A stretch of 41,813 nucleotides of DNA from positions 1 to 41,813 of the IMG/VR virus record IMGVR_UViG_3300015263_000147. One strand, written 5' to 3'. Source of the DNA: a virus. Below the pieces are notes generated by a model. It was given only the letters and a program-made list of their open reading frames with translations, ran no database searches and was not told the origin of the DNA. Position 1 is the first letter of the stretch. Each line of letters begins with the position of its first letter. Made by a program: the position numbers and the translations under genes. Shown here one piece after another: positions 4,501 through 37,805 of the stretch.

Positions 4501-5831
4501 GAGGAGGTCCGAGCCGGAACAACCGAGTTGTCCACGTACCGCTCACACTCGGCGAGGTAGAGCTTGTCATCCACGAGGGTCGGGATGACTTGGGAGTCGT
4601 CAAACAGCTCCGCGCCAGGGGTGCGGAGCGTGGAGGCGACCGAGTAGCTCGTACCCCAGTGGATGATCGACACGTCCGGAGACGGGTTGCTCACCACGAA
4701 GTCTTGGTTCTGGATGAAGTCGTTACGGCCGGGGCTGATACCCGCCCGGATGACGTTCGTAACCAGCGTGTTGGGGAGGTAGTCGAACGTGTCCTGCCAG
4801 GTGTTCGCGAAGTATTGGATGAGGACTTCGGAGCCCGAAGGCGGAGCGGTGGGGAGCGTTACCGTCCCGTTGGTGCCGTCCACGGAGGTCGGGATGACCT
4901 GGAGCCCGTTGACCTTGACGACGACCTTCGAGGGGTCGGTCGTCGTGAGGCCGCCAGAGGTGCCGTCCACGATCGGACGCTGAAAGACCTTGAAGGTCTG
5001 GTTCCGATTCGTCTTCTGCCCGTTGGCCAGACCGAGGGGTCCGTTGGCGTTCCCATCCCCGATCTCAATCGAGGTGGCCGCGTTGAACTGGAGGTGGAGA
5101 GAGCCATCGTTCGCCGTGAAGACGCTCGTGGTGAGGCCCGAGATGGCCGCAGCATCGATCTGCGTCTTGAGCGCCGAGGCCGTTGCCGCAGGAGCCGCCG
5201 TGAAGGTCACGGTGACCTCGGCTCCGCCATTCACCTTGATCTTGAAGGTGTCGTTGGCGCCCGTCGTGATGGCGAAGGTCTGATAACCCGGCGTAACGAT
5301 CTCAGCCGTGGTCGTCGTGACCTGATCGGAAACGTCATCCGTGAAGGCGGTATCCCCACGGTGGAAGAAGTAGGTGACCCGGACGACATCTTCCGGCTGA
5401 GGCGGGACCTGAAGCCCAATCTCCCCGGAGCTGCCTCGCACGAAGCCGACCGCGACGGGGATGCCGTTGACCGTGACGGTCACTGACCGGACATCGTTCG
5501 TCACACGACCGAACCCCTGACCGTCAACGATGGGATAGTTGACGACCTTGATTCGCGTACGCGTACCGTCGTTCAACCCAAGGATGGGGTTGTCGGGGTT
5601 GGTGTCGTCTACGATCCAGCGAGTCGTCACGTCTTCGTTGACGATCTGCTGGTCCAGCGTAGAGGACGATCCGCGCACCATCTCCAGGTCGAGCTGCTCC
5701 AGCTCTTCCTGTCCGACGCCGATGATGGTCGGAATGCGCAGACCTGCAATCAGCGCCGCGACGTTCGCTTCCGTCAGGGTGCGGGAGTAAACGCCAGGGG
5801 GGACATACGTGGTGAACGGACCCAACGCCAT
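1533..5831 (-). CDS. Tail sheath protein, oversized (1432 aa)
   Basis: Predicted contractile tail sheath. The N-terminus MALGPFTTYVPPGVYSRTL has the PGVY signature of phage sheaths, followed by a GLRIPTIIGVG strand. The last 330 residues (KPDILIPLS, RMVAFYPDS, LRARI C-terminus) resemble the conserved sheath core that locks subunits together. Most sheaths are 400-700 aa, so this one carries a large insertion. Within it three segments (about residues 185-270, 668-747 and 801-890) share a pattern G-x-ND-x-F-x-(I/V)-x-(I/V)-x-G followed by a helix rich in Ala/Thr, resembling the flagellin/hook IN motif. These are probably surface domains on the tail exterior (inference). ATG is preceded by GAGGA at good spacing. 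The gene follows a 200-base non-coding leader with direct repeats and ends before a hairpin terminator. Confidence 0.85.
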   Translation of the reverse strand: MALGPFTTYVPPGVYSRTLTEANVAALIAGLRIPTIIGVGQEELEQLDLEMVRGSSSTLDQQIVNEDVTTRWIVDDTNPDNPILGLNDGTRTRIKVVNYPIVDGQGFGRVTNDVRSVTVTVNGIPVAVGFVRGSSGEIGLQVPPQPEDVVRVTYFFHRGDTAFTDDVSDQVTTTTAEIVTPGYQTFAITTGANDTFKIKVNGGAEVTVTFTAAPAATASALKTQIDAAAISGLTTSVFTANDGSLHLQFNAATSIEIGDGNANGPLGLANGQKTNRNQTFKVFQRPIVDGTSGGLTTTDPSKVVVKVNGLQVIPTSVDGTNGTVTLPTAPPSGSEVLIQYFANTWQDTFDYLPNTLVTNVIRAGISPGRNDFIQNQDFVVSNPSPDVSIIHWGTSYSVASTLRTPGAELFDDSQVIPTLVDDKLYLAECERYVDNSVVPARTSSTEFLLPAVPTTGNGRDTPLGLDLFFSATNERNDLITNRPDLIVIRTGRTLRDALNRPAAKVLEVDGSTRKVTLKDAVPPDHNAYATFWYNRIADDTYILTNKVAGPIGTGQFEVFSTLFNTNVLQVRFGSKGGGLVDTVQWPRGVEQVPDAFHYGGTPVSETVTVTFGVSPATNAVYTNKGAGPYSFYGPSSATWRTVLNGGSTLATNLNVATEAYLVSQAVDISGGGIEITLAVNDTFSITIDGVDLDVTLPPGVAVTPAAIETAVNAVIDADATFSGTAPNNLFTAIPGPGTGYTFFVLRSYSTPAVLPDGFDHNSYSAIRQGTAETSLGFTTFQRADGTTGAINKPATLLSSLAEPFSFTSGVNDEFKVRINGVDFTAIINPASTTAALVVTDINAVISSQGDASVGTLDNLNKIRITSNTNSDQSSVLILNGTANAILGFNEGDFASQTRVTVQEVVDRLMDTVNFAVSTWSPPTPSATGGVAYPSVIDGQTYLTIESLVVGTSSSVVFATGTNSAFNVLTGTQITPGTDGDSGEAAYDNFVVTSDNPNGSDGTGVPGQTYTDTRSGLRFTVLPSTDGSYNTGGYFTMVVSPTWLVNPSIPYLSIPGLETVVTNTVNIGVNDTATLQTFNPSGVEPKNGDFYFISYRFMKQDFSTRIFRQFKTIQANFGTLSAENRVTLGAYLAILNGAVLVGVKQVLKIPNTNQASAASFIDAIQTLGTPLPGNIKPDILIPLSTDTGVYSYLTQHCEILSNIRNQSERMGFIGFASGTTPISAQTIARGQASQRMVAFYPDSSVITLANELGETFETLVDGTFFAAAISGAVCSPAIDVATPYTRRRVQGFTRIPRILDAVELNQTATAGITLLEDLDPIIRIRQGLTTNMTSVLTRLPTVTQIADFVSINSRAVLDAFVGTKFLSSRVNEVEVSMTSLFKQLVQQEIVGAFTGIAAAVDTEDPTILRAEAFYQPIFPLLYLVLTFNLRARI

Positions 5832-7699: not shown

Positions 7700-8740
7700 T
7701 CACCCGTCGTGCTCTTGCATCGCCAAGACGAGTAGACCTTCCGCAACCGCCGTCATCGGGTCTTTGGCTTGCCGGATGTCGGAGATTTCGATGGGAAAGC
7801 CCTTCTTTTTGATGGCTTGGAACTCCTCTTTGAAGAGGTCCATGAAGCCCTCGGCCCGCGTGGTCCCACCGCTCACCACGAACGGAATCGGGTCGGGGAG
7901 GCTCACCTTGCCTTGTTCCCGCCTGAACTGCGTCGCGATCTTCTCCAGGCAGTAGGAGATGAGGCTACGGATATAGAGAGCGAGGGCCTCTGCCTCCCGG
8001 TCCCCCTTCGGCGGCTTCATGAGGTTGAAGCCGCCTTTCTCCTTCTTGGCGCACATGCGAGCGGCAGTTGAACCAACAGCCTTCGCTGCGTGGGTGTCGA
8101 TCCAGTCCCCACCTCGGGCAATGGAAAAGTCCATACCCATCATCGTCTGGAAGGACAGGGCCACGTTGCACATACCCGAGCCGAACGAGACAGCGAGACC
8201 GGAGAAGTTCTCCTCCGCGCACTGGCTGTAGATGATGGCCATCGCCTCGTTCATCGGGTGGGGCGTGTACCGATGCTCGGCGATGATCTGCTTGAAGACC
8301 TCGCGGTGGTACGCCACGTCCTGATCCGGCACGTCGATCGGCTCGGCCGGCACGCTGTAGTAGCAGTGCTCCCCCTCCGAGATGGGCTCCCCGAGGACTT
8401 GGAAGATCATGAGGGAGAGGACTTCTTGCGACTCAAGCTCGCCTGGAGCGATGAGACCCTTCGCAAGCGGACGACGGACCTCCCTCTTGAAGAGGTTCGC
8501 CATGTTGAGGGCGGAATCGCCGATGACGATGAGTTGGTCGTCCTTCTCGATGTAGTTGATCTTCGACATCTTGAGGGACTTCTTGGCGTCCAGCTCAAGG
8601 TCGATGAAGGCGTCTCGGACCCGCTTCGTCTTGACCTCGGTGCCATATGTCCGAGCGGACACGAGGTTCATGGTCCCTACGTCGAGCCCGATGCCGGGCG
8701 CCGCTTGCATTTCTTCTGACATGTCCATCTTCCTTTTCAT
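7700..8740 (-). CDS. Actin-like ATPase (MreB/ParM superfamily)
   Basis: 346 aa. Phosphate-1 loop GIGLDVGTMN at residues 16-25; a region matching the connect motif (HPMNEAMAIIYS, about 161-172); phosphate-2 loop GLAVSFGSGM at 181-190; ARGGDWID at about 199-206, as in MreB; adenosine motif FVVSGGTTRAEGF near 277-289; and a terminal AVAEGLLVLA helix. The order and spacing match bacterial actins that polymerise with ATP. The Asp normally present in the phosphate-2 loop (VDIGGGT in MreB) is Ser185 here, which may weaken Mg2+ binding or hydrolysis. Known phage and plasmid actins move or position DNA, but this one sits inside a tail-connector operon, so its job is open. The ATG at 8740 lacks a ribosome site; ATG 8722 has AAGGA at better spacing and may be the true start. 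Confidence 0.85.
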   Translation of the reverse strand: MKRKMDMSEEMQAAPGIGLDVGTMNLVSARTYGTEVKTKRVRDAFIDLELDAKKSLKMSKINYIEKDDQLIVIGDSALNMANLFKREVRRPLAKGLIAPGELESQEVLSLMIFQVLGEPISEGEHCYYSVPAEPIDVPDQDVAYHREVFKQIIAEHRYTPHPMNEAMAIIYSQCAEENFSGLAVSFGSGMCNVALSFQTMMGMDFSIARGGDWIDTHAAKAVGSTAARMCAKKEKGGFNLMKPPKGDREAEALALYIRSLISYCLEKIATQFRREQGKVSLPDPIPFVVSGGTTRAEGFMDLFKEEFQAIKKKGFPIEISDIRQAKDPMTAVAEGLLVLAMQEHDG

Positions 8741-8769: not shown

Positions 8770-9507
8770 TCAACGCTTCCAAGAGGGGGGCGAGGTGACC
8801 TTGGGAGCCCAGACCTCATTGGTCTCTTTCCACGAAGGGTCGCTTGAGGCCACGACAGCTTGGCTGCGTTGTTGAAGCAAGTAGACGTGCTCCTCGTGCT
8901 TGTCCTCGATATCTTGGAGAAGGTTGTCCGTCCCACGAGAGAGCTTCCCGGCGTCCTTCAAGGCCGTAGCCATCTGAGCGACGCTGGCGACGAACCATTG
9001 TTCCGCCTTCAGGCTCGTGGCGATGTACGAGTCCGGGCTCTCACCTTCACCGAAGGTGGTTCCGTCCCCGCAGAGAGCCTGGACGATCCGGGTCACCTGA
9101 TACGCCTGAGCCCCTGGGTGAAGCGCCTCTTTGGAGGCTCCCGTGCCCACGGCTCGTTCGGCGATCTGGTCGATTTCACCCACGATGCCGTTGTAAAGGC
9201 GCTCGAAAAGCTGGTGGTCGGCGTAGAAAGGTGGGCCGTACGTAAGCCAATGATGGCTTTGGTGAACCATCGCGAGGGCTCGGAGCAAAGTCAGAGCCGT
9301 GGGGAGGATGGCATCCGGGACCTGAACAGCCTCATCCACGATGGAAGCCGTTACAACCCGAGCGACCTTCACGTCCGGCTGGTAGGGGAGCCCCGGTAGA
9401 TAAGGAGGACCCTGCATGTACGGGTTGTAGGAAGTGGGATCCTGCCAGATCGCATCGGTCGCGTCCGACGTTGGCTGAGCCGCCGTCTTCCAGCGAAGAT
9501 GGTTCAC
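8770..9507 (-). CDS. Dps/ferritin-like protein
   Basis: 245 aa. The central part carries the Dps pattern: HW at 86-87, GPPFYADH ending at His98, LFE with Glu102, then EIDQIAER with Asp113 and Glu117. Counting from His86 gives offsets of 12, 16, 27 and 31, identical to His51, His63, Asp67, Asp78 and Glu82 of E. coli Dps, with one Asp-to-Glu change. The inter-subunit ferroxidase ligands are therefore all present. A C-terminal helix (DIEDKHEEHVYLL) fits the last ferritin-like helix. Dps proteins oxidise and store iron and can bind DNA. A Pro/Tyr-rich N-terminal extension of about 45 residues and a C-terminal tail are unusual and may anchor it to virion parts (inference). It starts with GTG overlapping the upstream stop (GTGA). 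Confidence 0.85.
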   Translation of the reverse strand: MNHLRWKTAAQPTSDATDAIWQDPTSYNPYMQGPPYLPGLPYQPDVKVARVVTASIVDEAVQVPDAILPTALTLLRALAMVHQSHHWLTYGPPFYADHQLFERLYNGIVGEIDQIAERAVGTGASKEALHPGAQAYQVTRIVQALCGDGTTFGEGESPDSYIATSLKAEQWFVASVAQMATALKDAGKLSRGTDNLLQDIEDKHEEHVYLLQQRSQAVVASSDPSWKETNEVWAPKVTSPPSWKR

Positions 9508-13252: not shown

Positions 13253-14143
13253 TTAGAATCCGAGGAACTTCCGAGGGCTCAATACACCGCGACCGACGTA
13301 CGGACCGAAAGCGCTGCGAATCCCGGCCCCATACTTGGGCTGTTGAAGGCCCTTGATGTACTTGATCGTCTGCTTGGCCCGCTCCAGTTGCTTGTCGAAG
13401 AGGTCCGAGGCCCCTTGCTTGAGGCTCTCGTACTTGCTCGATTTATCGATCGTGAGGGAGACACCGCCGATGCTGTAGTCGAACTCGTCGGCCACCCAGT
13501 TGATCTGGAGAGCCTGGAGGGCGTAGATCATGGCCCCCGTGATGAGCAAGGTCCGCCATTCAGGGCGGTAGTTCGCCATCTGCTCGATGTCAGCGAAGGG
13601 CGTACGAGGTGGTGTCGCGATGATCATGTCCAGGGACCGATCAAGGTACTCAAGAAGCTCCACATCCTCCCATATGTAACCGAAGACCCGGCTGAATTGG
13701 TTGACGGTCTCCTCGTGGGCGGGCGGGCGGAACTTGTAGAATTTGTCCGGATTCTGGTCCCGGAGGAGCATCCGAAGCCTTCGGATGAGGTCTTCTTGGA
13801 GAGGTGTGAAGCACGTCGGCATCGCCGTCTCGCGATCCCGAACGTTGAACTCTTGAACGACCGTCTGGATCGGACCCCCTACGATCTCCCGCATGGTCCA
13901 GCGAATGCGGTAGTCCCCGAGGTTGGCATCGAGCGGGATGATGAGGGAGGCGTAGTATTCGCCGACAGTTGGGTTGAGTGGCGTCCTCTTGGGTGACCCA
14001 ACGAGCACCTCCATCCCCGTCGTGAAGTCGTAGATGGCGTAGTAAATCTCGGCAGCGTTCGTCGGATGTCCGGACGAGTTGGTCAGGAACAGATTCAGGT
14101 CGTCCCGGCCAAGCTGTTGCCCTCTGAGGAAACCTACACCCAT
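13253..14143 (-). CDS. Virion protein, candidate head-tail adaptor
   Basis: 296 aa. The first 100 residues look like an Ig-like beta domain (AEIYYAIYDFTTGMEVLVG, GDYRIRWTMREI). From about residue 110 it becomes helical (EDLIRRLRMLLRDQNPDKFY, WRTLLITGAMIYALQALQI), as in gp6-like connector proteins, ending with a basic tail. It shares the N-terminal style of the next upstream gene (GEYYASLIIP versus GEYYVSG), suggesting related beta domains. Start ATG has GGTGGTGAG upstream and follows the previous stop within two bases. The adaptor role is inferred from order and the helical C-terminus. Confidence 0.65.
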   Translation of the reverse strand: MGVGFLRGQQLGRDDLNLFLTNSSGHPTNAAEIYYAIYDFTTGMEVLVGSPKRTPLNPTVGEYYASLIIPLDANLGDYRIRWTMREIVGGPIQTVVQEFNVRDRETAMPTCFTPLQEDLIRRLRMLLRDQNPDKFYKFRPPAHEETVNQFSRVFGYIWEDVELLEYLDRSLDMIIATPPRTPFADIEQMANYRPEWRTLLITGAMIYALQALQINWVADEFDYSIGGVSLTIDKSSKYESLKQGASDLFDKQLERAKQTIKYIKGLQQPKYGAGIRSAFGPYVGRGVLSPRKFLGF

Positions 14144-14144
14144 C

Positions 14145-14576
14145 TCACCACCCGAACTTCCCGCACGAGCCGGTCTGCGTCAAGCACCCCCCACCGCACC
14201 CACACGAGACCGTCCCGTAGGTCGCGGGCTGTAGCTGGGAAGTGTCGAACACGGTGAACCCGAATCGCTCGGTCATGAGAGCCGACCCGAAGGACTGCTC
14301 CAGCTTCCACTCGACGTACCAGCTACCCGGCTGACCGCACTGCCCAGCAACCCCGGAGACGTAGTATTCACCGATATCCGCCATCACCGGGGTCCGACCA
14401 CAAGGACCAACACGCATCGGCGCACAAGCATCCTTGGCGTAACGGTACAAGGTGTACGTCACCTTGTATGGGCTGACGGGGTTTCCCGCCGTATCCGTCA
14501 CGAACAGTGGGAGGTCTCCTCGTTGGAAGACATACCCCCACTTGAAGACTCCGGGGCTGGCGGGCTTAACAATCAT
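14145..14576 (-). CDS. Small Ig-like virion protein with Cys-rich tail
   Basis: 143 aa from ATG 14576, overlapping the upstream gene by 11 bases, with GGTGG upstream. Beta-rich (LPLFVTDTAGNPVSPYKVTY, GEYYVSGV, WYVEWKLEQSFGSAL). The last 25 residues are Gly- and Cys-rich, with Cys in a CGCGGGC cluster and one further Cys near the C-terminus. Two more Cys pairs lie mid-protein (DACAP, GPCGR, GQCGQ). Such Cys density is rare in cytoplasmic phage proteins and suggests metal binding or disulfides in the finished particle. Function unknown. Confidence 0.7.
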   Translation of the reverse strand: MIVKPASPGVFKWGYVFQRGDLPLFVTDTAGNPVSPYKVTYTLYRYAKDACAPMRVGPCGRTPVMADIGEYYVSGVAGQCGQPGSWYVEWKLEQSFGSALMTERFGFTVFDTSQLQPATYGTVSCGCGGGCLTQTGSCGKFGW

Positions 14577-14973
14577 TCTTACCACCCGTGCCAATAAAAG
14601 AAGCCTTCATCCCGCTGCCGAGCTGAGGCCCGGCGCCAGGAACGACATCGTAGTCCTGCGCCAAAATCTGCGTCACGGTAGGGTAGGTGATGATGAGCCT
14701 CCAGTAGCCCACAGCGTTGGGGCGCCAACGTACGCCATACGGACCCCCGAGGATCTCCTCCCAGTAAATTTTCCCCGCAACGATTTGGCTGTCAACAACA
14801 CCAACCCCAGAGACCATCGGCCACGTGAGGGTGGTGTTGTTGAAGTAAATCTGACCCGTGACGTTGCTGATTGTCAGCCCGGTCGCACGGGTATAGCCGT
14901 CAAGCTGGAAGAAGTCTGCTTGGTCGTAGACCACCTGATTGGACTGTACAAGCCTGCCTCGTGTGGTGGCCAT
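14566..14973 (-). CDS. Small virion protein, paralogue A
   Basis: 135 aa, beta-rich. Residues about 45-115 align closely with the upstream neighbour: TLTWPMVSGVGVVDSQIVAG here against QLSWPIVSGVGVADVQVAAG there, followed by KIYWEE/KVYWTE, VRWRPN/IRWFPN, YWRLIITYP/PWRVLLTYP and DYDVVPG/TYEVVPQ. The two are a tandem duplication. ATG follows a strong GGAGGGGG and overlaps the preceding TGA. Probably a fibre, baseplate or neck decoration; exact role unknown. Confidence 0.7.
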   Translation of the reverse strand: MATTRGRLVQSNQVVYDQADFFQLDGYTRATGLTISNVTGQIYFNNTTLTWPMVSGVGVVDSQIVAGKIYWEEILGGPYGVRWRPNAVGYWRLIITYPTVTQILAQDYDVVPGAGPQLGSGMKASFIGTGGKNDC

Positions 14974-15522
14974 TCACGGCCCCCTCCGAATGAATGAGGC
15001 TCGAAGCCCAAGTCCCCCAGGAGCGTTCACCTGGGGGACTACTTCGTAGGTTAGCGAGATAGCTTGATCGTAGGCCGGGTACGTGAGGAGGACGCGCCAC
15101 GGCCCCGTCATGTTCGGGAACCAACGAATGTTGTAGAAGCCGGTGGAGAACTCGGTCCAATAGACCTTCCCCGCCGCTACCTGAACATCGGCCACACCTA
15201 CCCCGGACACGATAGGCCACGACAGTTGCGTGGCACCAACGTAGATCCTGAGTTGGAGGTTGGCTTCGGTCACCCCTTGCGACCGAGTTTTCCCGTCCGC
15301 CAGGAACAGGTCAACTTGGTCTAGGATCATCCGACCCGCTGGGACAGTCCGAGGCGGAGGATTGTACCGAACGGGAGCTGCGTAGCCCGTGTCTACCGTG
15401 AGGTCTGCCCCCACGGTAGACGAGCCCGCGATCCCCGCATCGGCGCTTTGGGTAAGAATACCCTCGGCCGAAAGCGTGGAATCTCCAGACAGATCCGCAT
15501 CGACATCGACGATAGGCGGCAC
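14974..15522 (-). CDS. Small virion protein, paralogue B with repeat-like N-terminus
   Basis: 182 aa from GTG 15522, with GAGGAG six bases upstream. The C-terminal 110 residues are the paralogous domain shared with the downstream gene. The first 45 residues (DADLSGDSTLSAEGILTQSA and on) echo the DASQTGD/LSGD repeats of the two proteins encoded upstream at 15961-18171, implying exchange of repeat segments between neighbours. Probably part of the same surface structure. Confidence 0.7.
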   Translation of the reverse strand: MPPIVDVDADLSGDSTLSAEGILTQSADAGIAGSSTVGADLTVDTGYAAPVRYNPPPRTVPAGRMILDQVDLFLADGKTRSQGVTEANLQLRIYVGATQLSWPIVSGVGVADVQVAAGKVYWTEFSTGFYNIRWFPNMTGPWRVLLTYPAYDQAISLTYEVVPQVNAPGGLGLRASFIRRGP

Positions 15523-19157: not shown

Positions 19158-19715
19158 TTAGGCAAGCATTATCGAAGGCGGTGACTCTCGCCGGGCTTCC
19201 CACTTCTCCAGGTACTCAACGGCTGCCCGGAGCACCTTCAAGTCGTCCTTCGCGTACCCGAGGACCAAGTTGCAGTTCCGGTGGATGAGGCCCCTCACGC
19301 ACTTGCCACAGGACTTCTTCCCAGCGCAACACGAGCGGTCGTGGTCGACGCAGACGGACGTGGGGTCTTTACCCTCTCGCTGCATGGGGAGCCCGCAGCA
19401 AGCGCAGAGGCCGCCTTGGGTGACCCACATGGCGTCGAAGTCGATGCTGAATTTAATCTTCGCTCTGGATTGCCTGAACTTCTCGGGGTGACGGAGCTGC
19501 CACGCCCGAGAGATGGCCGACGCCCTCCCTGGGTTGGAGCTACGCCACCGATGGCACCGCGCCAAGCTCTTCTGTGGGTCTGCTCTGTCCCGAGCAACAC
19601 ACTCAGAAACGTGGCACGCCTTGCACTTACCCCAGAGCTTCCCCGTCTTTTTGTAGACGTAGAAGTCGGACTCGTCCTTCTCGACCTGGCACTTAGAGCA
19701 TCGCTTCACACCCAC
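19158..19715 (-). CDS. Free-standing HNH / endonuclease VII-type nuclease
   Basis: 185 aa. The C-terminal half has CACCG at 104-108, VDHDR at 123-127, CGKCVRGLIHRNCN at 136-149 and LGYAKDD, the signature of the recombination endonuclease VII family (beta-beta-alpha metal fold; His125 the expected general base; zinc from Cys pairs). The N-terminus has a second Cys set (Cys6, Cys9, Cys31, Cys34), probably a zinc finger. Free-standing genes of this type in phages usually act as mobile endonucleases that cut DNA lacking the insertion. The GTG start lies in a perfect 7-bp hairpin, which could restrict translation. It separates virion genes, consistent with a later insertion. Confidence 0.85.
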   Translation of the reverse strand: MGVKRCSKCQVEKDESDFYVYKKTGKLWGKCKACHVSECVARDRADPQKSLARCHRWRSSNPGRASAISRAWQLRHPEKFRQSRAKIKFSIDFDAMWVTQGGLCACCGLPMQREGKDPTSVCVDHDRSCCAGKKSCGKCVRGLIHRNCNLVLGYAKDDLKVLRAAVEYLEKWEARRESPPSIMLA

Positions 19716-20114: not shown

Positions 20115-20921
20115 TCAGACGCTACCGATGCTGGAGGTGGCCGTGATCATGTCGTTGACTTGAACACGGGCCAGGTACTCGGTGCGCGTGGCGCTGGTGA
20201 TCTTGCTGGAGATGAGCGAGGCCGGAACGTCGATCTGCGTCCCTGCCGCATTGATCGAACCTCCAGCCGCCACGATGGCCGCCTGCGTGAGAAACAGCTT
20301 CACGGGGGTCTCGTTGGGGAGAAGCGGGGCACGGGTGAAGATGACCGCGAAGCTGTAGCTCCCGTACGGCGCCAGGGAGGTCCCGGCAACCCGAATCCAA
20401 CCAGCCGAAGGCGAACCGAACGTGGCGGTCGAGAGGACCGGAGCGGCGAAGGTGAAGGCGGTCACGCCGTCATCCTCAACGCACTCGATGGCCGGACCGT
20501 TGGCGATAGCCGGGTCACGTCGCGGGTCGGGATTGAAGTTGGCCGACAGGTACCCAGCAAGGTTCCCGTAGAGGAAGCTCTTTTTGAGAGCGTCCGTCTC
20601 CACGAACTGCGGGGCGAGGAGGTCTTGAAGGGCGGTCACCTGAGCAGCCGTGGCTCCACCAAGACCGGCAACACCCGTGATCGTGCCCGAAGACACGTCC
20701 ACGGAACCACCCACGGGGACGGTTGCCGTGATGAGCGTTGTCGCCGACGCACCGAGACCCTGCCCATCCAGGTACGCCTGAATGGCAGTAGCGTTCGGCC
20801 TGCCTACGTAGCGGGCGTTGCCAAGAGGGGATTCAGTCGAGGCATTCGACTGCGACTTGGGCTCCACATCGGCGATGAAGAGAGCCTTGCTGATGTCTCC
20901 ACGAATGACTCCGACACGCAT
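20115..20921 (-). CDS. Virion protein, paralogue C
   Basis: 268 aa with a strong AGGAGG site eight bases before ATG. The N-terminal half has unusual Ala/Gly/Thr-rich strands and a helix (TAAQVTALQDLLAPQFV). The C-terminal 110 residues share a domain with the gene at 21307: APVLSTATFGSPSAGWIRVA and TQAAIVAAGGSINAAGTQID here, APVLTTADLDTPGAGDLRLT and TQAQILGGSGSITDTQIDIP there. The shared part looks like an Ig/IPT-type beta domain. Probably a surface or baseplate component; function unknown. Confidence 0.7.
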   Translation of the reverse strand: MRVGVIRGDISKALFIADVEPKSQSNASTESPLGNARYVGRPNATAIQAYLDGQGLGASATTLITATVPVGGSVDVSSGTITGVAGLGGATAAQVTALQDLLAPQFVETDALKKSFLYGNLAGYLSANFNPDPRRDPAIANGPAIECVEDDGVTAFTFAAPVLSTATFGSPSAGWIRVAGTSLAPYGSYSFAVIFTRAPLLPNETPVKLFLTQAAIVAAGGSINAAGTQIDVPASLISSKITSATRTEYLARVQVNDMITATSSIGSV

Positions 20922-21306: not shown

Positions 21307-21936
21307 TCACGTCAGGGCAACGACCGCAGAGAGCTGATCATCGGCCTTGACCTGAGCCGATGTCGTCGTGGTCGCCGCTCCAGGGATGAGGGCGGCCGGG
21401 ATGTCGATCTGTGTGTCCGTGATCGACCCGCTGCCACCGAGGATCTGGGCCTGCGTCAGCGTGACGGCACCATCTCCCGTGAGGTAGACCGTCGTGGTGT
21501 TCGGGGACAACGACAGGAAGCCCGTCCCCGTGAGGCGGAGGTCACCGGCACCAGGGGTGTCGAGATCCGCCGTCGTCAGGACCGGAGCCACCACGTCCGC
21601 CGCCGTGAACGAGGTCACGGTGAGGTGGCCTGCCGTCTGGAGGCCCTTGATGGTCCCCCGAGATTGAGACATGAGCACGGCGTCCGTTTCCGCGATGTCG
21701 ATGTAACCAGCGATGGTCGCATCACCCGGCTTCGTCCTCGGGACGTAGCACTGCGTCTTGGGGTAGTTGACCCCAGGCTTGGTGCTCGCATCCGGACCGG
21801 ACAACACGTTGCCGTCCTTGTTGTACTTGTTGGGATCGCCCATGAGTCGATGAGCGGTCCGGTTGGCGATCCGAGCGTCGATGTCGTTGATCAGCAACGG
21901 GCCTTGCGCAGCCTGGGTATGGGTTAGCCTCAGCAT
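21307..21936 (-). CDS. Virion protein, paralogue D
   Basis: 209 aa, ATG with AGGAG nine bases upstream. The N-terminal 90 residues (LLINDIDARIANRTAHRLMG, GVNYPKTQCYVPRTKPGD) differ from paralogue C, while residues about 115-205 match its C-terminal domain (LRLTGTGFLSLSPNTTTVYL, TQAQILGGSGSITDTQIDIP). The shared module seems to have been combined with different N-terminal parts, as in tail or fibre proteins. Confidence 0.7.
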   Translation of the reverse strand: MLRLTHTQAAQGPLLINDIDARIANRTAHRLMGDPNKYNKDGNVLSGPDASTKPGVNYPKTQCYVPRTKPGDATIAGYIDIAETDAVLMSQSRGTIKGLQTAGHLTVTSFTAADVVAPVLTTADLDTPGAGDLRLTGTGFLSLSPNTTTVYLTGDGAVTLTQAQILGGSGSITDTQIDIPAALIPGAATTTTSAQVKADDQLSAVVALT

Positions 21937-21999
21937 TCCTCATCGCTCCTACAGGAAGGGTTCACGGATACCGGCCCCATAAAAGGATCCGTAGGGCAA

Positions 22000-22035
22000 A
22001 AAGAGAGGCGCCAAGTCACCTTGACGCCCCTCTTT
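22000..22035 (-). terminator. Strong terminator after the lipase gene
   Basis: A 16-position stem with two mismatches (arms about 22000-22015 and 22020-22035, 4-base loop) is followed on the minus strand by CTCTTTTTG. It lies 18 bases past the lipase stop. This is the clearest intrinsic terminator in the window. Confidence 0.85.
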
Positions 22036-22053
22036 ACCCAAAACGGGTCTTCG

Positions 22054-22971
22054 TCAGAGGTTGATCTTGCAGTAGGCGTCCGCAATCACCGCTGCGTTCG
22101 TCGGGACGACGAGGTGCTGGATGGTGGAGACCTGGCAAGAATCCGACTGAGGATCCTTTGTGTAGTTGCCCGAGCCGGAGCAGTTGAGGTCGTCGCCCTG
22201 CTGGGTTTGAGGGTTCGAGATGAAGAACCCTCCACACCAAGGGGGGACGGTCTTGTCTCCAGTGCTGACCGTAGCCGAGTAGTGAACCGGACCCGGTGAG
22301 GCGCCTCCAGGCGTCATGTCGTTCGAGCCGTCTCCTTGAGGAGCGACCCCATTCAGCTTGTGGAGGAAGGCGCTGTCCGGGCAGACCTCGGGGTTGACCC
22401 CCGCACAGGCGCCAGCCAACGTGCAGTTCGTGATTCCATTGTGCGTGGCCGCCATGACGACGAGGTCTTTCACCTGCCTCGGAGCCGCCAAGAACTGGCT
22501 GTAGTAGCGAGCTACGACGCCGCCCTGGCTGTGCGTCACGATGTCGACCATCGGGCACGTCCCGGCGTCTGCATCGCACGGCACCTTCTCGTCGATGAAA
22601 CGCTTGAGGCACTTCGCGTACGACTCGTTTACGTACGTCGCCCCCGTTCCGTCCGGAGCAGGCAGCATCGAGCAGAAACCGTTGTCTCCGCAATACGCCG
22701 CCATGTTGAGGCGGAACAGGTTCGTGTTCTCGGTGTAGCCCTTGCCCGACCAGTCGGACACAAGAGCGTCCCAACGGGAGGGGGAGTCACCCCGACCATG
22801 GACAAGGATAACGGGCTGGGCTGGCGTCACGACGGAGCACGTCATGCAACCCCCGCTACCGCCGCCTCCCCCACCACCGGGAGCCTTGCCCTTCGCAGAA
22901 ACGTCACCCGCTTGATTGGAGGGAGTGCAAGCAATCAGAACGGTCAATAGTAGGAACCACACGGCTTTCAT
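22054..22971 (-). CDS. Predicted lipoprotein lipase/esterase (alpha/beta hydrolase)
   Basis: 305 aa from ATG 22971, chosen because AAAGGAG precedes it and it gives a clean signal peptide; the open frame runs on upstream to 23082. Residues 1-15 form a lipoprotein signal, MKAVWFLLLTVLIAC, with Cys15 as the lipidation site, then a Gly-rich linker (about 31-41). The body is an alpha/beta hydrolase: VILVHGRGD at 54-62 (oxyanion region), THSQGG at 146-151 with Ser148 as nucleophile, Asp239 in STGDKTVP and His286 in IQHLVVPTN. The layout fits Lipase_2/LipA-like triacylglycerol lipases. Many further Cys suggest disulfides and export. A lipid-anchored secreted enzyme is odd amid virion genes; it may aid lysis, alter the cell envelope, or act in exclusion. 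It ends at a strong terminator. Confidence 0.85.
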   Translation of the reverse strand: MKAVWFLLLTVLIACTPSNQAGDVSAKGKAPGGGGGGGSGGCMTCSVVTPAQPVILVHGRGDSPSRWDALVSDWSGKGYTENTNLFRLNMAAYCGDNGFCSMLPAPDGTGATYVNESYAKCLKRFIDEKVPCDADAGTCPMVDIVTHSQGGVVARYYSQFLAAPRQVKDLVVMAATHNGITNCTLAGACAGVNPEVCPDSAFLHKLNGVAPQGDGSNDMTPGGASPGPVHYSATVSTGDKTVPPWCGGFFISNPQTQQGDDLNCSGSGNYTKDPQSDSCQVSTIQHLVVPTNAAVIADAYCKINL

Positions 22972-22985
22972 TTTGAAAATCTCCT

Positions 22986-23741
22986 TTAGGCCACGGTCTC
23001 CGTCCACACTAGACCGATATGAAAAGTACCCCCGTTGCCGGTCACTTGGTGGGCGACTAGACCCTCCCCAGGGAGCAAACAAATAGGATCTTCACCTACG
23101 GTACCGAACGGGAGGAAGTAGGTTGTCGGGCCTTGGGCCGTGTTGGCTTGGATGATGAAGGACTGGGCTCTTGTGGAGCCCGTAACCGAAGCAGGGGTGT
23201 TGTAGACCTGGGCTATAGAGGTGGGATCCGACGAGCATCTCTTGATGATGGTGACCGCCGTACCTGCCGTATGGGCCGTAATCTGCCGTAGCTCGTAAAG
23301 AACGATGACGCCGGTACCAGAAGACGTTTCAGCTTGAACGGAGAAGCCTCGGATGTTGATGTGCTTCCCTGAACCCGAGGGGTTCATGATGGAGACCATC
23401 GCCTTGTTGGTTCCGCTAGGTCCACCACCGGAAGGCCCCGAGGCGCTCTCAGCAATGTTGTACGTGTACCCGAGGGCGTTGTTGAGTCTGCGGTTTGACT
23501 CCGACTGGTAGTTGGTCGTGAAGTCCGACTTGTCGGAATCGTTCGTTGCTTGCGAGTAGTACGCCTGCACGCCCGTTGGGACAGTGCCCTTGTAGATGGT
23601 ACAGACGTACTTCATCGGCACGTCGTACGCGAAGATGGTGTACGTGTCCGAGTCTTGAATGTATTGGATTTGCTCAAGCAAACCCTTTGCCGTCAAGGCG
23701 GCCTTGAAGTCAGTCCAAAAGAGGGTGAAGGTGTCCAGCAT
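22986..23741 (-). CDS. Virion protein, fibre-module
   Basis: 251 aa from ATG 23741, where GGAG lies seven bases upstream; the open frame extends to 23849 inside the upstream gene but is unsupported there. The N-terminal part is helix and strand (LFWTDFKAALTAKGLLEQIQ). The rest is beta-rich with AMVSIMNPSGSGKHINIRGF and FHIGLVWTETVA, similar to small phage structural domains that carry a NP-x-GSGK-hydrophobic strand. It follows the large fibre gene and precedes the lipase, so a fibre tip or chaperone role is possible. Family not identified. Confidence 0.7.
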   Translation of the reverse strand: MLDTFTLFWTDFKAALTAKGLLEQIQYIQDSDTYTIFAYDVPMKYVCTIYKGTVPTGVQAYYSQATNDSDKSDFTTNYQSESNRRLNNALGYTYNIAESASGPSGGGPSGTNKAMVSIMNPSGSGKHINIRGFSVQAETSSGTGVIVLYELRQITAHTAGTAVTIIKRCSSDPTSIAQVYNTPASVTGSTRAQSFIIQANTAQGPTTYFLPFGTVGEDPICLLPGEGLVAHQVTGNGGTFHIGLVWTETVA

Positions 23742-23742
23742 C

Positions 23743-26700
23743 TCAAATCTCCGAGTAGTCGAAGGATGCCGACAGTAGGGCGTTGTTGACACCCGGCACC
23801 CCATAGGCCGTGATGCGCCTGAATCCCGTAATTTTCTGGGGGATTTCAACTGCTCGACGGAAGGCGCCGACGATCACGATGACGTCACCAAAGATGTTTT
23901 CAGGGGCGTTCGCCGTCAGTACGGCCTTCTCCTTCAAGTAGAACTTGGCGTTGGTGCCGGAGCCTGACGAGGTGGCAGAAACCGTAAGGGTCGCCAAAGA
24001 GGCGGTTTTACTCGCCGGGACGTAGTGGTGCGCCCAGAGGGTCTGATTGTCGCCAACGCCGGTCACTACGTTACCCACGCCAATGGTTCCGATCGTGCCC
24101 CCTCCACCCGCGTTGTTCACGTAGAGGGTGATCGTTCCGGCGTTGGCCCCACCCGATCCAACGGAAACCACCTCCAACTTCTCGATGAAACAGATGTCCG
24201 TGGCCGTCGTAGCAACGGCCGCAGTTCCGTTCAGATTGACAGTCTCAGTGAAGGGTCCGGTCCCCGTTGCCGTGAAGTAGGTGATCTTGACTTGACGAGC
24301 CCCGGTCCCTGCTGAGGTATCGTTCGCATTGGAGGACGCTATCGAACGCTGTGCGTTGGAACTTTGCTCCGTGTATGCCGTCGCCCGGATGGCTTGTTGC
24401 GTGTTGGAGGTACCACCGCCGAGAGAAACGATCCCACTCGAAAGGCCGGGAACGGCATCGGCCGAAATGTTGCTGAGAACAACTTGAAGGTTACCTGCAC
24501 CGTCTACACGGAGGTATTGGATCTGATCCGAGTCATCAACTCCAGCAACCGGAACGGGCGGATCCTCCGCAACCGTCCCAACGTCAGACTGGCCTTCAAT
24601 GGCGTTACCTGCCGCATGACCGCAGAAGGCGACATTCACCCCCGTCCACGAGGCGGAGGCTCCAGTGATCGTCCAGGAAATCTTGATGGAGTCGCTGACC
24701 AACTCCGGAATTTCAATGATCTCTTGGTCATTTGTGGTGTGAACCACACCCGTCCAAGACCGCGCATCTGTGAGCACCGTCGTACCGTCAATCGGATCGA
24801 CCTGCTCGATCTTGAATTGAATCGTCGGTGACGTGCCCGTAGGGGCGTTCTTCAAGTTGACGATGAGGTACCACTCAGCGTACCCCACCCACGTCAAAAC
24901 CTGATTCCCAGTGGAAGTCAGGGTAGCGTTGTTGTGGATTGTTCGACGGTCTCCGTTCGGGTCGGAGTACAACGTCTTGAAAAGCGTACCGATGGTGTTG
25001 GTACCATCTGTGAGACGAGCATAGATAGCCCGAGCCGCAGCATCCGCTGTCGGCATCGTATTGGTGCCGTCCGTGTGCTTGACCGGCCAAGCTCCGGAGA
25101 GAGCCGCTGCCGTCCCTTGTTGAACCGGGAACTCAGCTTGGTCCGAGGCAACAACAACCGGCACCGAGGAGGCCATCGCCTTCTGGCCGACTGTAGGAGC
25201 CGTGGACCCGAGCCAAGCCCCTACGTTGACGTCGAGCCGACCACCGACAAGAGCCCCAGGGAGCTGGCCCGAATTGGGGGCTGTATAGAAGGCGGTCCCA
25301 TCGGAGAGTCGAACTGAAAACGGGGCCGTGGCGAGCGTTCGATCGGTAGCTGGGGAGATGAACCCCGAGCCGTCTGAGAGCCCAACCATCCACCGCTGGG
25401 CGTGGGAACCTGCGTTCCCTTGGTTCGCCGTGACCGTCCCATCAACCGTGAGGCTCGTTCCACCGTCATCGACGGTGAGACTCCCCCCTGCATCCGAGAC
25501 GGGTTGGGTCGTCGTCCCGGTCGGGTCTACCCGAACGGTACCGTCCGTAGCCGTCCGAAGGGTCCGAGCATTCGTACCATCCGAGCCAGCCGCCAAGACC
25601 GGGTTTCCGGCTGCGGCTGCCCCCGAGGCTGCGGCACCAACGACCTGAAGACGCCCAGAAGCGTCTGAGAGGGCGTCCCTCGTGTTCGTGCCGTCCGAGA
25701 AGGCAATCCGAACCGGGTTGCCGGAAAGAGCCGCCCCAGAGGCCCCTGGACCAACTACGGACCAAGGAGGAGTGCCTTGCTCGACCGTCCAGGTTCCGCT
25801 TTGCGCTACCGACCAAGACCCGCTCTGAGAGACCGACCATGGAGGCGTGCCTTGTTGAACGGTCCAGGTCCCACTCTGGGAAACCGGGAGGGCGGTTTGG
25901 TCCGAAGCGAGGACCACCGGAACCGAAGACGCCATCGCCTTCTGGCCCACCGTAGGGGCTGTACTCCCCAGCCAAGCCCCAAGGTTGGTGTCCAGACGCC
26001 CACCTACGAGGGCGGTCGGAAGCTGTCCTGAACTGGGAGCCGTGTAGAAGGCGGTCCCGTCAGAGAGCCGGACTGAGAAGGGGGCCGTGGCAAGAGTCCG
26101 GTCCGTTGCCGGGGAGATGAAGCCAGACCCATCCGAGAGGCCGACCATCCACCGTTGAACGTGGGTGCCTGCATTCCCCTGATCTGCCGTGACCGTCCCA
26201 TCAACAGTGAGGCTGCCACCCCCATCCGTGACATCCACGGCACCGTCAACCGTGAGGCTTCCCCCGTTGTCCGAAACGGGTTGGACGGCCGGGAAGTTGG
26301 TGACCGCTACCGAGCCGTCAACAGTGAGGCTTCCTCCACCATCGGAAACGGGAATGGCTGACTGGTCGGAGGCCACCACAACGGGCGTTGAGGCCACCAT
26401 CGCTTTCTGGCCGAGGGTGTTGATCCGGGCCGTGAAGGTGGCTTCTGCTAGCCTTGTCGCAAGGGTGGTTTCGGTCGCCGCTCCCGTTGGAAGGGGGAGG
26501 GAAGCGGCGGAAATGGGTTGCGTGTCTGACGGGGTGGTCGCGTTGTAGAAGAACGTTCCGTCCGTTAGGCGAACCGCATGGGGGCTTCCCGCCGTGGTGT
26601 GCTCCCCGGCCCTGGTCGCTAACGTCGCCTCGGTTGCGGCCCCCGTGGGAAGAGGCAGGGTGGCAACGCTTATTGGGAGGTCTGTTCCGCCTGCTACCCC

Positions 26701-26919
26701 TTGAACCGAGACGACTCCACCAGCGGGGGTACCGGCAACCCCGGCCCCAACAACGACTTGGCGACCCGAGGTGTCAACGAGGATGAACTGAGCATCCCCG
26801 CCCCCATCCACCCCAACCGTGATGAAACCACGGGAATTGACCCCCGTAGCAACGCCATCCTTGGTGGCAAGCTCGACGCTGTCCGTCGTATAGAGGATGG
26901 TTACCGGGGATTTAGCCAT
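23743..26919 (-). CDS. Large tail-fibre-like repeat protein (1058 aa)
   Basis: The largest protein here after the sheath. Low-complexity beta repeats fill residues about 90-600: GSLTVDG, PVSQSGTWTVQQGTPPWSV, ASDQ(T/A/S)xxPV and LPLPTGAATE(A/T)TLATR. A 315-bp segment occurs twice (25139-25453 and 25898-26212). These patterns recur in long phage fibres and bind no known cofactor. The last 350 residues are less repetitive (LTWVGYAEWYLIVNLKN, VTGVGDNQTLWAHHYVPASK) and may form the distal domain. ATG overlaps nothing but follows the previous stop by one base; no ribosome site is obvious, so coupling is likely. Host-range function is inferred. Confidence 0.8.
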   Translation of the reverse strand: MAKSPVTILYTTDSVELATKDGVATGVNSRGFITVGVDGGGDAQFILVDTSGRQVVVGAGVAGTPAGGVVSVQGVAGGTDLPISVATLPLPTGAATEATLATRAGEHTTAGSPHAVRLTDGTFFYNATTPSDTQPISAASLPLPTGAATETTLATRLAEATFTARINTLGQKAMVASTPVVVASDQSAIPVSDGGGSLTVDGSVAVTNFPAVQPVSDNGGSLTVDGAVDVTDGGGSLTVDGTVTADQGNAGTHVQRWMVGLSDGSGFISPATDRTLATAPFSVRLSDGTAFYTAPSSGQLPTALVGGRLDTNLGAWLGSTAPTVGQKAMASSVPVVLASDQTALPVSQSGTWTVQQGTPPWSVSQSGSWSVAQSGTWTVEQGTPPWSVVGPGASGAALSGNPVRIAFSDGTNTRDALSDASGRLQVVGAAASGAAAAGNPVLAAGSDGTNARTLRTATDGTVRVDPTGTTTQPVSDAGGSLTVDDGGTSLTVDGTVTANQGNAGSHAQRWMVGLSDGSGFISPATDRTLATAPFSVRLSDGTAFYTAPNSGQLPGALVGGRLDVNVGAWLGSTAPTVGQKAMASSVPVVVASDQAEFPVQQGTAAALSGAWPVKHTDGTNTMPTADAAARAIYARLTDGTNTIGTLFKTLYSDPNGDRRTIHNNATLTSTGNQVLTWVGYAEWYLIVNLKNAPTGTSPTIQFKIEQVDPIDGTTVLTDARSWTGVVHTTNDQEIIEIPELVSDSIKISWTITGASASWTGVNVAFCGHAAGNAIEGQSDVGTVAEDPPVPVAGVDDSDQIQYLRVDGAGNLQVVLSNISADAVPGLSSGIVSLGGGTSNTQQAIRATAYTEQSSNAQRSIASSNANDTSAGTGARQVKITYFTATGTGPFTETVNLNGTAAVATTATDICFIEKLEVVSVGSGGANAGTITLYVNNAGGGGTIGTIGVGNVVTGVGDNQTLWAHHYVPASKTASLATLTVSATSSGSGTNAKFYLKEKAVLTANAPENIFGDVIVIVGAFRRAVEIPQKITGFRRITAYGVPGVNNALLSASFDYSEI
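25139..25453. repeat. Internal 315-bp duplication, copy 2
   Basis: This encodes the second copy of the roughly 105-residue unit (RWMVGLSDGSGFISPATD and following, through AWLGSTAPTVGQKAMASS). It is the same length as the other copy at 25898-26212, 759 bases apart. Amino acids are mostly unchanged, while many third codon positions differ. Confidence 0.85.
25898..26212. repeat. Internal 315-bp duplication, copy 1
   Basis: First copy (in protein order) of the 105-residue unit in the fibre gene. It aligns without gaps to 25139-25453. Synonymous divergence suggests an old duplication kept by protein-level selection. Confidence 0.85.
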
Positions 26920-34286: not shown

Positions 34287-34616
34287 TCACTTCTTCCCGC
34301 GACCCTTGCCTGAGTCGGGGAGCTGACCCACCGTCACCTTGAGGGCCTTGACGAACCGAGCCTTGAGCTTCTTCGAGGCCGGCTTGGCAGGTACCGTCAT
34401 CTGAGCCCCAGTCGCCGGGTTCCGAGCCTTGCGCTCAGGCTTCGGACCGACTTTCACGAGGATCAGCTTCGCGATGCCAGGCACCGTAAACTGGTTCTCC
34501 TTCTTGAGAGTCTTCCCGCAGACCAAGTTGAGGGCGTTGAGAAACGCCTTCACATGGGTCTTGGTGGTACCGTCCATCTCCTCAGCAATGGCGCTAATGA
34601 GTTGCGTCTTCGTCAT
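34287..34616 (-). CDS. HU/IHF-family DNA-binding protein
   Basis: 109 aa. TKTQLISAIAEEMDGTTKTH and the LNALNLVCGKTLKKEN helices are followed by FTVPGIAKLILVK and the DNA-intercalating arm with RNPATG at 65-70 (Pro67), then KARFVKALK. This is the HU/IHF fold that bends DNA as a dimer. A basic tail (GKGRGKK) extends it. ATG has AAGGA upstream, and the gene ends in a strong terminator. In a virion module it may condense phage DNA or help packaging, which is inference. Confidence 0.9.
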   Translation of the reverse strand: MTKTQLISAIAEEMDGTTKTHVKAFLNALNLVCGKTLKKENQFTVPGIAKLILVKVGPKPERKARNPATGAQMTVPAKPASKKLKARFVKALKVTVGQLPDSGKGRGKK

Positions 34617-35877: not shown

Positions 35878-36855
35878 TCAGGCAGGTGGTCGACCCACCT
35901 TCCGAGGGTGCGGGATGTTGTACATCCTCAAGTAACGGTCGATGGTCGTGTGAGACTGCCCCAAGTCTTTAGCCATTCGCTTCACCGGCACCCCTTTGGC
36001 CGCCAGCTCCCGGAGAAGACTCTCGGGTAGAGCCTGCCTGACTTGGTAGTGCGGCCCTTGAAAGCCGAAATGGAGCTTGTGCTTCATGCACTCGGGCATG
36101 TGGGGCTTCACGAGGGAGATGAAAAGGTGGGCTTGGTCTTCCCCCTCGAAGAGAAAGTCCCCCGTCTTTCCGTTGTGAATTTCCCACCGGGGCTTGAGAT
36201 TGAACCTGGCGAGGATTTCTAGGGCTACATCTCGACTGGAGGGCTGCATTCCGAACGTGATGCGGGGCCACCACCCAACCGAACCATCGTCCATGAACCA
36301 TACGGACAAGGCGAAGGCGTCCACGAGGTCTACAACTTTTCGGTCAAGGCGCTTAGGCCCGGTCTCGTCGTAGAAGGTCGGGTACCATTCGTTGAGGCTC
36401 GGGTGAGCTACTGTCTCGAACCGCCACCCTTTGAAGGTGCCTTCGGGTTTTTTCCAAACGACCGGCTTGACCCCGCTCTTGACCCACGACCCCCACTGAA
36501 CCGCCTTCCACTCGATGTACTCCCGTTGGGCATCCGAATGGTTTTCAAGGAACCGGGTCGAGTTGGGTAGCCGACCCAACCGCCCGTCCCCGAGCATCGA
36601 CCCTACCAAAAGTGACCGGAGCCTACCTTCGATGGAGGTCACCTCATTGCGTTCCGCCCGAGAGACGGTTTCGATTCCGAACCGTTTTCGCCAAGACCGA
36701 ACCCTCTTGAGTGTGGCGCCTTGTCCGATCCGGTCGACGATGGCCTGGTCGGTGAGCTTCTCGACTTCGTAGAGTTGGCGTAGGGCTTCGGGAGGAAGGG
36801 GGCAGTCGATAGGTCTCACTTGAAGTGAGGTAGCACCTAATTGGTCCGTTAGCAA
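35878..36855 (-). CDS. LAGLIDADG homing endonuclease, free-standing
   Basis: 325 aa. Two motif copies are seen: LLVGSMLGDGRL (residues 82-93, Asp90) and ALSVWFMDDGS (172-182, Asp180). Two motifs mean a single-chain enzyme that cuts a long asymmetric DNA site. The C-terminus ends in a helix-turn-helix (VKRMAKDLGQSHTTIDRYLR), and another helix-turn-helix-like part precedes motif 1. It is not inside another gene, so no intron or intein is evident. The track start is TTG at 36855, 16 bases past the capsid terminator stem; a GTG at 36819 is also possible. It sits between the major capsid gene and a lectin-like gene, as expected for a mobile insertion. Confidence 0.85.
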   Translation of the reverse strand: MLTDQLGATSLQVRPIDCPLPPEALRQLYEVEKLTDQAIVDRIGQGATLKRVRSWRKRFGIETVSRAERNEVTSIEGRLRSLLVGSMLGDGRLGRLPNSTRFLENHSDAQREYIEWKAVQWGSWVKSGVKPVVWKKPEGTFKGWRFETVAHPSLNEWYPTFYDETGPKRLDRKVVDLVDAFALSVWFMDDGSVGWWPRITFGMQPSSRDVALEILARFNLKPRWEIHNGKTGDFLFEGEDQAHLFISLVKPHMPECMKHKLHFGFQGPHYQVRQALPESLLRELAAKGVPVKRMAKDLGQSHTTIDRYLRMYNIPHPRKVGRPPA

Positions 36856-36932: not shown

Positions 36933-37805
36933 TCAGACGCGGGTGACGATCAACCGCGTGAGACCACGCGGGTTGAACGCGCCGATGCCGACATTTTCAA
37001 AACAGGAGAAGCCGATGGTGCGGGCCTTCGGGTCGTCCGCCGAGAGGACCGTCAGCTCCGTACGAACCGGGAAGCGGCCGAAGTTCTCCGGCTCCGCACA
37101 GATGTACACGAACCCGGCCGGAACCAGGCGGCTCGTGATGATCTGGGCGCCCCAGAGCGTGGCCTGGAGGCCCGTCTTGAGGAGGACAGCCTGCGACTCG
37201 ATGTCGAGGATGTCTCGGCCGAACTTGCGGATGTCCGCGTAGTCCGTCGCGTTCATGTAGATACGGGCAACCCGGAGGTCGTGCCGCTCCACTTCCGCGA
37301 AGGCGTCCGCGAGGACGGACGGCGAGATCGGAGCCACGACGTTGATGTCGGGGTTCGTCTGGCCGGGGAGGGTGTCGAAGCCCGAGACAGCGATGCTGTC
37401 GAGGACCGCGAACACACGCTCGTCTTCCGCCGCCTGGATCTGAGCCTTGGCGAGATCCTGGGACCGCTCGATGAGGTCGAAGCGGCGCTCCTTGATCTGC
37501 GTCAGCGGGATCTCGGGGTTCGAGGCGATCTCGAACAGCGGGAAGATCACACGACGGGGCTTCTGGATGGCAAGGATGTTCTCGCCCTCCTCGCCGACCA
37601 CGTACGCCGTGACGTCCGGGTCCTTGTCGTAGATCGGAAGCGCTCCGTCCGGAAGCTGCTCGACCAGGAAGGTCTTGCGGCCGACCGCCGTGTAGTCACG
37701 ACGGAGGCGGAGAGGCTGGATCATGGAGGCAGCGAGCTTCGCACGGCCAGCGGCCGTTTTGATGTACTCGCTGATGATCTGTTGCTTGACGTCGTTGGAA
37801 ACCAT
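36933..37805 (-). CDS. Major capsid protein
   Basis: 290 aa, a probable HK97-fold shell subunit. Features: a helical N-terminus (VKQQIISEYIKTAAGRAKLA), an E-loop-like stretch (YVVGEEGENILAIQKPRRVI), an acidic spine helix (RSQDLAKAQIQAAEDERVFA), and a P-domain and A-domain part (HDLRVARIYMNATDYADIRK, LWGAQIITSRLVPAGFVYIC, LSADDPKARTIGFSCFENVG). Context agrees: protease, scaffold and decoration genes lie upstream, and a strong terminator follows. KTAAG at residues 16-20 may be a maturation cut site. ATG has GAAGG seven bases upstream. Confidence 0.85.
   Translation of the reverse strand: MVSNDVKQQIISEYIKTAAGRAKLAASMIQPLRLRRDYTAVGRKTFLVEQLPDGALPIYDKDPDVTAYVVGEEGENILAIQKPRRVIFPLFEIASNPEIPLTQIKERRFDLIERSQDLAKAQIQAAEDERVFAVLDSIAVSGFDTLPGQTNPDINVVAPISPSVLADAFAEVERHDLRVARIYMNATDYADIRKFGRDILDIESQAVLLKTGLQATLWGAQIITSRLVPAGFVYICAEPENFGRFPVRTELTVLSADDPKARTIGFSCFENVGIGAFNPRGLTRLIVTRV

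Follow-up and report, generated by a model that had tools for sequence, protein, structure and literature searches.

A predicted lipoprotein lipase that accompanies one type of fibre-tip gene in unrelated phages, and a tentative role for it in modifying the surface of the infected cell

Llp of phage T5 and Cor of phage T1 are small lipoproteins, of which Llp is made early and blocks a protein receptor non-enzymatically. Most of the exclusion lipoproteins described for phages come from coliphages, and those whose mechanism has been worked out bind a protein receptor. Enzymes that act on the cell surface are known from other viruses: the LysB proteins of mycobacteriophages are mycolyl esterases that act on envelope lipids and belong to the lysis cassette, and haemagglutinin-esterase and neuraminidase are receptor-destroying enzymes of animal viruses. 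Secreted lipases are also common among bacterial proteins. The gene for Llp, which jams the receptor FhuA, is found directly downstream of that for the receptor-binding protein pb5, and exclusion lipoproteins of other coliphages are probably encoded behind gpJ (PMC9586334). Among phage lipases, a GDSL lipase of a Pseudomonas phage is encoded upstream of holin and endolysin, and PghP of the Bacillus phage PhiNIT1, which has been called a lipase, is not virion-associated but is freed on lysis and degrades an extracellular polymer (PMC12173070). Virions of the jumbo phage XacN1 contain a packaged lipase (PMC5852040).

The gene described here lies on a 41.8 kb IMG/VR virus record, analysed over its whole length and referred to below as the window, in which nearly all genes are on the minus strand and no tRNA or Rfam RNA was found. 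The window encodes a prohead protease-like protein (40073-41719), an HK97-fold major capsid protein (36933-37805) and, at 1533-5831, a 1432-aa protein with a match to the tail sheath of jumbo phage Tunturi_5. The capsid protein is 84% identical to that of LR745208, an uncultured 485-kb phage, 47% identical to that of Tunturi_5 and 38% identical to that of Bacillus phage G, so that the window most likely represents part of the genome of a huge phage with a contractile tail. LR745208, the closest named relative by capsid, gave no Lipase_2 match. A 286-kb contig carrying a homologous lipase locus (L002; contig L029) is syntenic with the window, with 99.7% identity in the capsid protein against about 50–90% in most other genes and 30–50% in the fibres, a pattern that reflects either recent capsid exchange or extreme constraint. 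An actin-like protein (7700-8740) has a full-length match to Pfam Volactin (E 7e-73), a family named from haloarchaea and here present in a phage; a ferritin/Dps-like protein (8770-9507; PF00210) and an HU-like DNA-binding protein (34287-34616; PF00216, 59 bits) are encoded in the virion-gene region. A LAGLIDADG endonuclease gene (35878-36855; PF03161) was found immediately downstream of the capsid gene, a position at which L002 has none, and an Endonuclease VII-like ORF (19158-19715; PF02945) has a relative in L002 that matches over residues 3-46 and 132-181 only, the middle seemingly missing. Two structural-type proteins (20115-20921 and 21307-21936) have a C-terminal domain in common, and similar paralogue pairs occur at 14566-14973 with 14974-15522 and at 13253-14143 with 14145-14594.

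An earlier note on this DNA had picked out one gene as encoding a secreted lipoprotein lipase among fibre genes, with a lipobox at Cys15, a Ser148-Asp239-His286 triad, many cysteines and a strong terminator of its own. This gene (22054..22971, minus strand) encodes 305 aa from an ATG start, from which the homologues also align. Its ribosome-binding site, AAGGAG (22981..22986, minus strand; CCTAAAGGAGATTTTCAAAATG), ends 9 nt ahead of the ATG and shares sequence with the stop codon of the tip gene before it. A TTG start at 23082 (342 aa) was rejected on two grounds: the alignments of the homologues begin at the ATG, and the longer frame would overlap the tip gene. The terminator was confirmed downstream of the gene as a Rho-independent structure with a long GC stem followed by a U-rich tract (21994..22039, minus strand), the hairpin having a predicted energy of −34.4 kcal/mol (z = −5.0); the orthologue in L002 is followed on its 3′ side by an unrelated strong hairpin (z = −6.1). 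A scan of the window for sigma-70 promoters did no better than the chance level.

The protein scored 33.7 bits against Pfam Lipase_2 (PF01674; cut-off 20.3), a cut-off that was exceeded in all six lipase-bearing records searched. Palm_thioest was passed as well (34.2 bits, cut-off 26.8), so that the protein can be placed with the Lipase_2 or alpha/beta-hydrolase type while its exact subfamily is not fixed by Pfam. Neither a Cutinase-type domain nor a carbohydrate-binding module was matched in Pfam. Sequence matches in the PDB comprised the secreted lipase 5h6b, PhaZ7 and Bacillus LipA. With phmmer, residues 26-224 matched the PHB depolymerase PhaZ7 (4bvl; E 1.4e-7); an identity as PhaZ7 (NF050060) was rejected on a score of 34.4 bits against an equivalog cut-off of 450. 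The three residues proposed as a triad occur in Ser-Asp-His order and are invariant in the six distinct homologues. The predicted nucleophile, Ser148 (codon 22528..22530, minus strand), lies in the motif THSQGG and aligns with the active-site region of 5h6b and Bacillus LipA, and the predicted catalytic acid, Asp239 (22255..22257, minus strand; STGDKTV), aligns with the Asp of 5h6b (tkyDqvv). His286 (22114..22116, minus strand) was assigned as the putative catalytic base by elimination and not from structure, the only other invariant histidines being H58 (HGR) and H147 (THSQGG). On these grounds the protein would be expected to act as a serine esterase. AlphaFold runs on six and on seven homologues gave poor models (pLDDT 41 and 44), with which the top three Foldseek matches were all Bacillus LipA (probability 1.00, best E 2.9e-3, TM at most 0.43). 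The better-predicted N-terminal half of this weak model has the order of strands and helices expected near the oxyanion loop and nucleophile elbow; the model and its matches are consistent with an alpha/beta-hydrolase and are no proof of triad geometry.

The leader of the protein conforms to the PROSITE-type lipoprotein rule, which calls for a Cys at 15–35 and a Lys or Arg within the first seven residues. Cys15, the predicted lipidation site (codon 22927..22929, minus strand), ends the lipobox V-L-I-A|C in the window, and all five other distinct homologues also follow the rule, with the cysteine at 16–20. Shuffled N-termini of the homologues did so in 1.3–2.6% of cases each, and among the 43 ORFs of the window the lipase was the only one to conform. 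Across the six distinct homologues a single position is invariant in residues 1-41, namely Cys15, against 161 of the 264 positions in residues 42-305; the lipid anchor itself thus appears to be under selection. Cysteine makes up 4.9% of the lipase against 0.74% of the remaining window proteins, and 14 cysteines besides Cys15 are invariant. Values of dN/dS were 0.07–0.22 where calculable, with dS near saturation, and suggest purifying selection. Taken together with the invariant residues and the lipoprotein rule, they indicate that both the predicted enzyme and its predicted lipid anchor are maintained. The reading as a lipid-anchored, exported lipase or esterase encoded in a virion module is therefore well supported by sequence and conservation, although the place of its gene there need not mean that the protein is part of the virion: a lipoprotein exported through Sec would be expected on the host membrane.

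The position among fibre genes was also correctly described. Directly upstream of the lipase is a fibre-tip-like gene (22986..23741, minus strand; 251 aa), preceded by a gene for a repetitive fibre-like protein (23743..26919, minus strand; 1058 aa) whose C-terminal domain is common to more than 500 viral contigs; both genes are fibre-like and hypervariable. The position and variability of the tip suggest that it binds a receptor. The lipase appears to end the transcription unit that contains the fibre genes, an arrangement that suggests late expression, and its synthesis probably coincides with that of the virion proteins.

A sequence scan and a profile scan of viral contigs identified homologues on six contigs (L002-L007), 65–74% identical, and the same six were recovered by a rescan with the mature domain and by an exact motif scan. 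A single base distinguishes L005 from L006 in the stretch that they share, which leaves six distinct sequences including that of the window. In all seven records the lipase is situated behind the same tip domain on the same strand. The spacing between the two genes is close in most: the lipase start overlaps the tip stop by 4 nt (ATGA) in L004 and L005, and 1–14 nt separate them in the window, L002 and L003. The C-terminal Glu-Glu of the tip in L002 and L003 is encoded by codons (GGAGGAG and GGAGGAA) that can act as the ribosome-binding site of the lipase. L007 differs, with a spacer of about 190 nt and a stop codon that interrupts the tip ORF. The association was also seen from the side of the tip, since two profile scans of 2.9 million viral contigs, with patterns built from those same tip sequences, returned exactly these six lipase-bearing contigs. 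We also surveyed the general fibre domain by fetching 80 loci, out of more than 500 contigs, with flanks of up to 6 kb, and found the lipase within the flanks of only two, precisely the two that have the tip. Pairwise divergences of tip and lipase are correlated (Mantel r 0.79, exact p 0.0014, n = 6), a statistic that rests, like the linkage as a whole, on a small set of six distinct sequences.

The phages that carry this pair are not all alike. The huge-phage capsid is present in three of the seven records (the window, L002 and L003) and was not found in the records of L004, L005 and L007, which may be fragments. The HK97-type capsid of L005 is of another kind, similar to capsids from Rhodobacter, Rhizobium and Vibrio phages, the portal of L004 is weakly similar to those of Komagataeibacter phages, and the flanks of L003 have little else in common with the window. 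In L007 the lipase is adjoined by a tubulin-like gene (L007:8845-11508), the 887-aa TubZ-like product of which has its GTPase and C-terminal domains about 380 residues apart; the insert is probably an intein. The lipase carriers thus comprise at least two unrelated phage backbones, which implies that the tip and lipase moved between phages as a pair, or were kept while the rest was replaced. The linkage could instead reflect a shared host range and not a shared mechanism. Beyond these contigs, no relative of the lipase was found in INPHARED (50,697 records) or PHROGs, and plasmid matches were to distant lipases of Streptomyces, Rhodococcus and Agrobacterium (27–35%).

The same slot can be occupied by another lipoprotein. 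A scan of the 80 fibre loci for ORFs with a lipobox up to 2.5 kb downstream returned three, namely two of the lipases and a 394-aa lipoprotein behind a tip-like gene on a 393-kb contig (L079:7695-8879). The latter is homologous (32%, E 9e-26) to a lipoprotein encoded directly after the lipase in L003 (L003:8933-9649), and also to ORFs behind tip-like genes in L051 (L051:4817-5992) and L068 (L068:7792-8967), in which an Asn precedes the Cys to give an atypical lipobox. This second family of huge-phage lipoproteins had no Pfam match and is unrelated to the lipase. Two unrelated lipoprotein families in the slot behind the tip are what a functional pairing of tip and lipoprotein would give.

Our best explanation, which we hold tentatively and at somewhat less than even confidence, is that the gene encodes an exported, membrane-anchored serine esterase that is paired with a receptor-binding tip and modifies the surface of the infected cell, by receptor alteration or superinfection exclusion. 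The protein would pass through the host Sec pathway and be lipidated at Cys15, disulfides would hold it together outside the cytoplasm, and its anchor would keep it at the infected cell's envelope, which in a diderm host probably means the outer membrane. As it is encoded in one unit with the fibre tip, it is probably a late product like the proteins of the virion, and it would most likely hydrolyse an ester in a component of the cell surface that is recognised by the tip or stands in its way. With the receptor altered on the infected cell and on debris, further phage would be excluded and progeny would not be lost to re-adsorption, which would make the enzyme a catalytic counterpart of the Llp and Cor lipoproteins. 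In a narrower and more doubtful form of this idea, the anchored esterase would be a receptor-destroying phage enzyme, exchanged together with its matching tip, as a cassette of tip plus lipoprotein, between unrelated large phages and removing an ester-containing receptor from the infected cell, much as haemagglutinin-esterase and neuraminidase do for animal viruses.

The main rival is help with lysis, in which the anchored esterase would attack envelope lipids or ester-linked envelope polymers late in infection and so aid cell burst, in the manner of LysB. An apparently late position in the operon and a lipolytic enzyme located in the envelope would both suit such a role, and phage lipases that function in lysis are known, the Ms6 enzyme being an example (PMC12173070). 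On the other hand, endolysin, holin and spanin families were not found in 42 of the 43 ORFs of the window, which is part of a genome and in which the scan takes in the lipase's own neighbourhood, and linkage to a fibre tip across unrelated phages is not predicted for a general lysis enzyme. The earlier note had offered lysis, outer-membrane remodelling and a block to superinfection side by side. A gene that travels with the tip and has no recognisable lysis gene among those ORFs favours receptor modification or superinfection exclusion over lysis, which we regard as possible but rather doubtful.

Unlikely, too, is the clearing of matrix or capsule by an enzyme that is released or remains on debris and strips acyl or ester decorations from extracellular polymers, so that progeny reach new cells. 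PghP offers a precedent, and a polymer recognised by both tip and enzyme would account for their linkage, but a conserved lipid anchor ill suits a diffusible enzyme and no carbohydrate-binding module accompanies the hydrolase in Pfam. Still less probable is a passenger gene that is of use to the host during infection, or acts against competitors or grazers, and plays no part in adsorption or lysis. The abundance of secreted lipases in bacteria would agree with such an origin, whereas the constant place of the gene behind a single type of tip in phages that are unrelated would not. Nor was any cellular relative found by a DIVTHSQGG-type motif scan of 85,000 species genomes or by an earlier profile-pattern scan of genome contigs; the motif pattern was verified to match all phage copies, and both scans are insensitive, as exact patterns that would miss distant relatives. 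The least probable alternative, an esterase associated with fibre or baseplate whose N-terminus is a membrane-inserting tail and not a lipoprotein signal, draws on the place of the gene among structural genes and on the virion lipase of XacN1 (PMC5852040), but is hard to reconcile with a leader that conforms to the lipoprotein rule in all homologues and in which Cys15 alone is invariant, with 14 invariant cysteines that suit an oxidising compartment and not cytoplasmic assembly, and with an XacN1 lipase that is unrelated and has no evident leader.

Surface modification by a tip-linked enzyme would combine elements that are known separately. Both the enzyme family and the positional strategy have been described, and it is their combination that we did not find reported: the open-licence literature on phage lipases yielded none that is both lipid-anchored and linked to a fibre tip, in keeping with the earlier note, which knew of no lipoprotein-anchored lipase in a virion module. 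If this reading is true, a catalytic lipoprotein inherited with its own tip would extend the exclusion principle to lipid or ester-bearing receptors and would hint at the receptor chemistry of uncultured huge phages, and more pairs of tip and lipoprotein could be found from gene position alone, a prospect to which the second lipoprotein family points.

Compared with the described systems, the protein shares with Lipase_2 members, LipA and 5h6b the HG oxyanion motif, the HSQGG nucleophile elbow and the matching Asp region, and differs from LipA in being about 120 residues larger, in its 14 conserved cysteines and lipobox, and in being encoded in phage fibre operons. ORF279 of XacN1 is likewise a lipase gene in a jumbo phage, but its product belongs to another sequence family (GHSLGG), has no leader, is packed in the virion and is not encoded beside fibre genes; being unrelated in sequence, it was rejected as prior art. 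With LysB the protein has in common that it is predicted to be a phage serine esterase that acts on envelope lipids, whereas the window lipase gave no match to the Cutinase-type family and is not encoded in a recognisable lysis cassette as LysB is, no lysis family having been matched in 42 of the 43 window ORFs. The parallel with Llp of T5 is one of position, since in all seven records a phage lipoprotein gene is found directly downstream of a tip gene, the tip being the putative receptor-binding protein. Llp and Cor are, however, small and non-enzymatic, whereas the phage lipase has 305 aa and a hydrolase domain, and its position suggests late expression where Llp is made early. We therefore do not place it in the Llp/Cor group and claim no kinship by sequence, although it may serve the same end.
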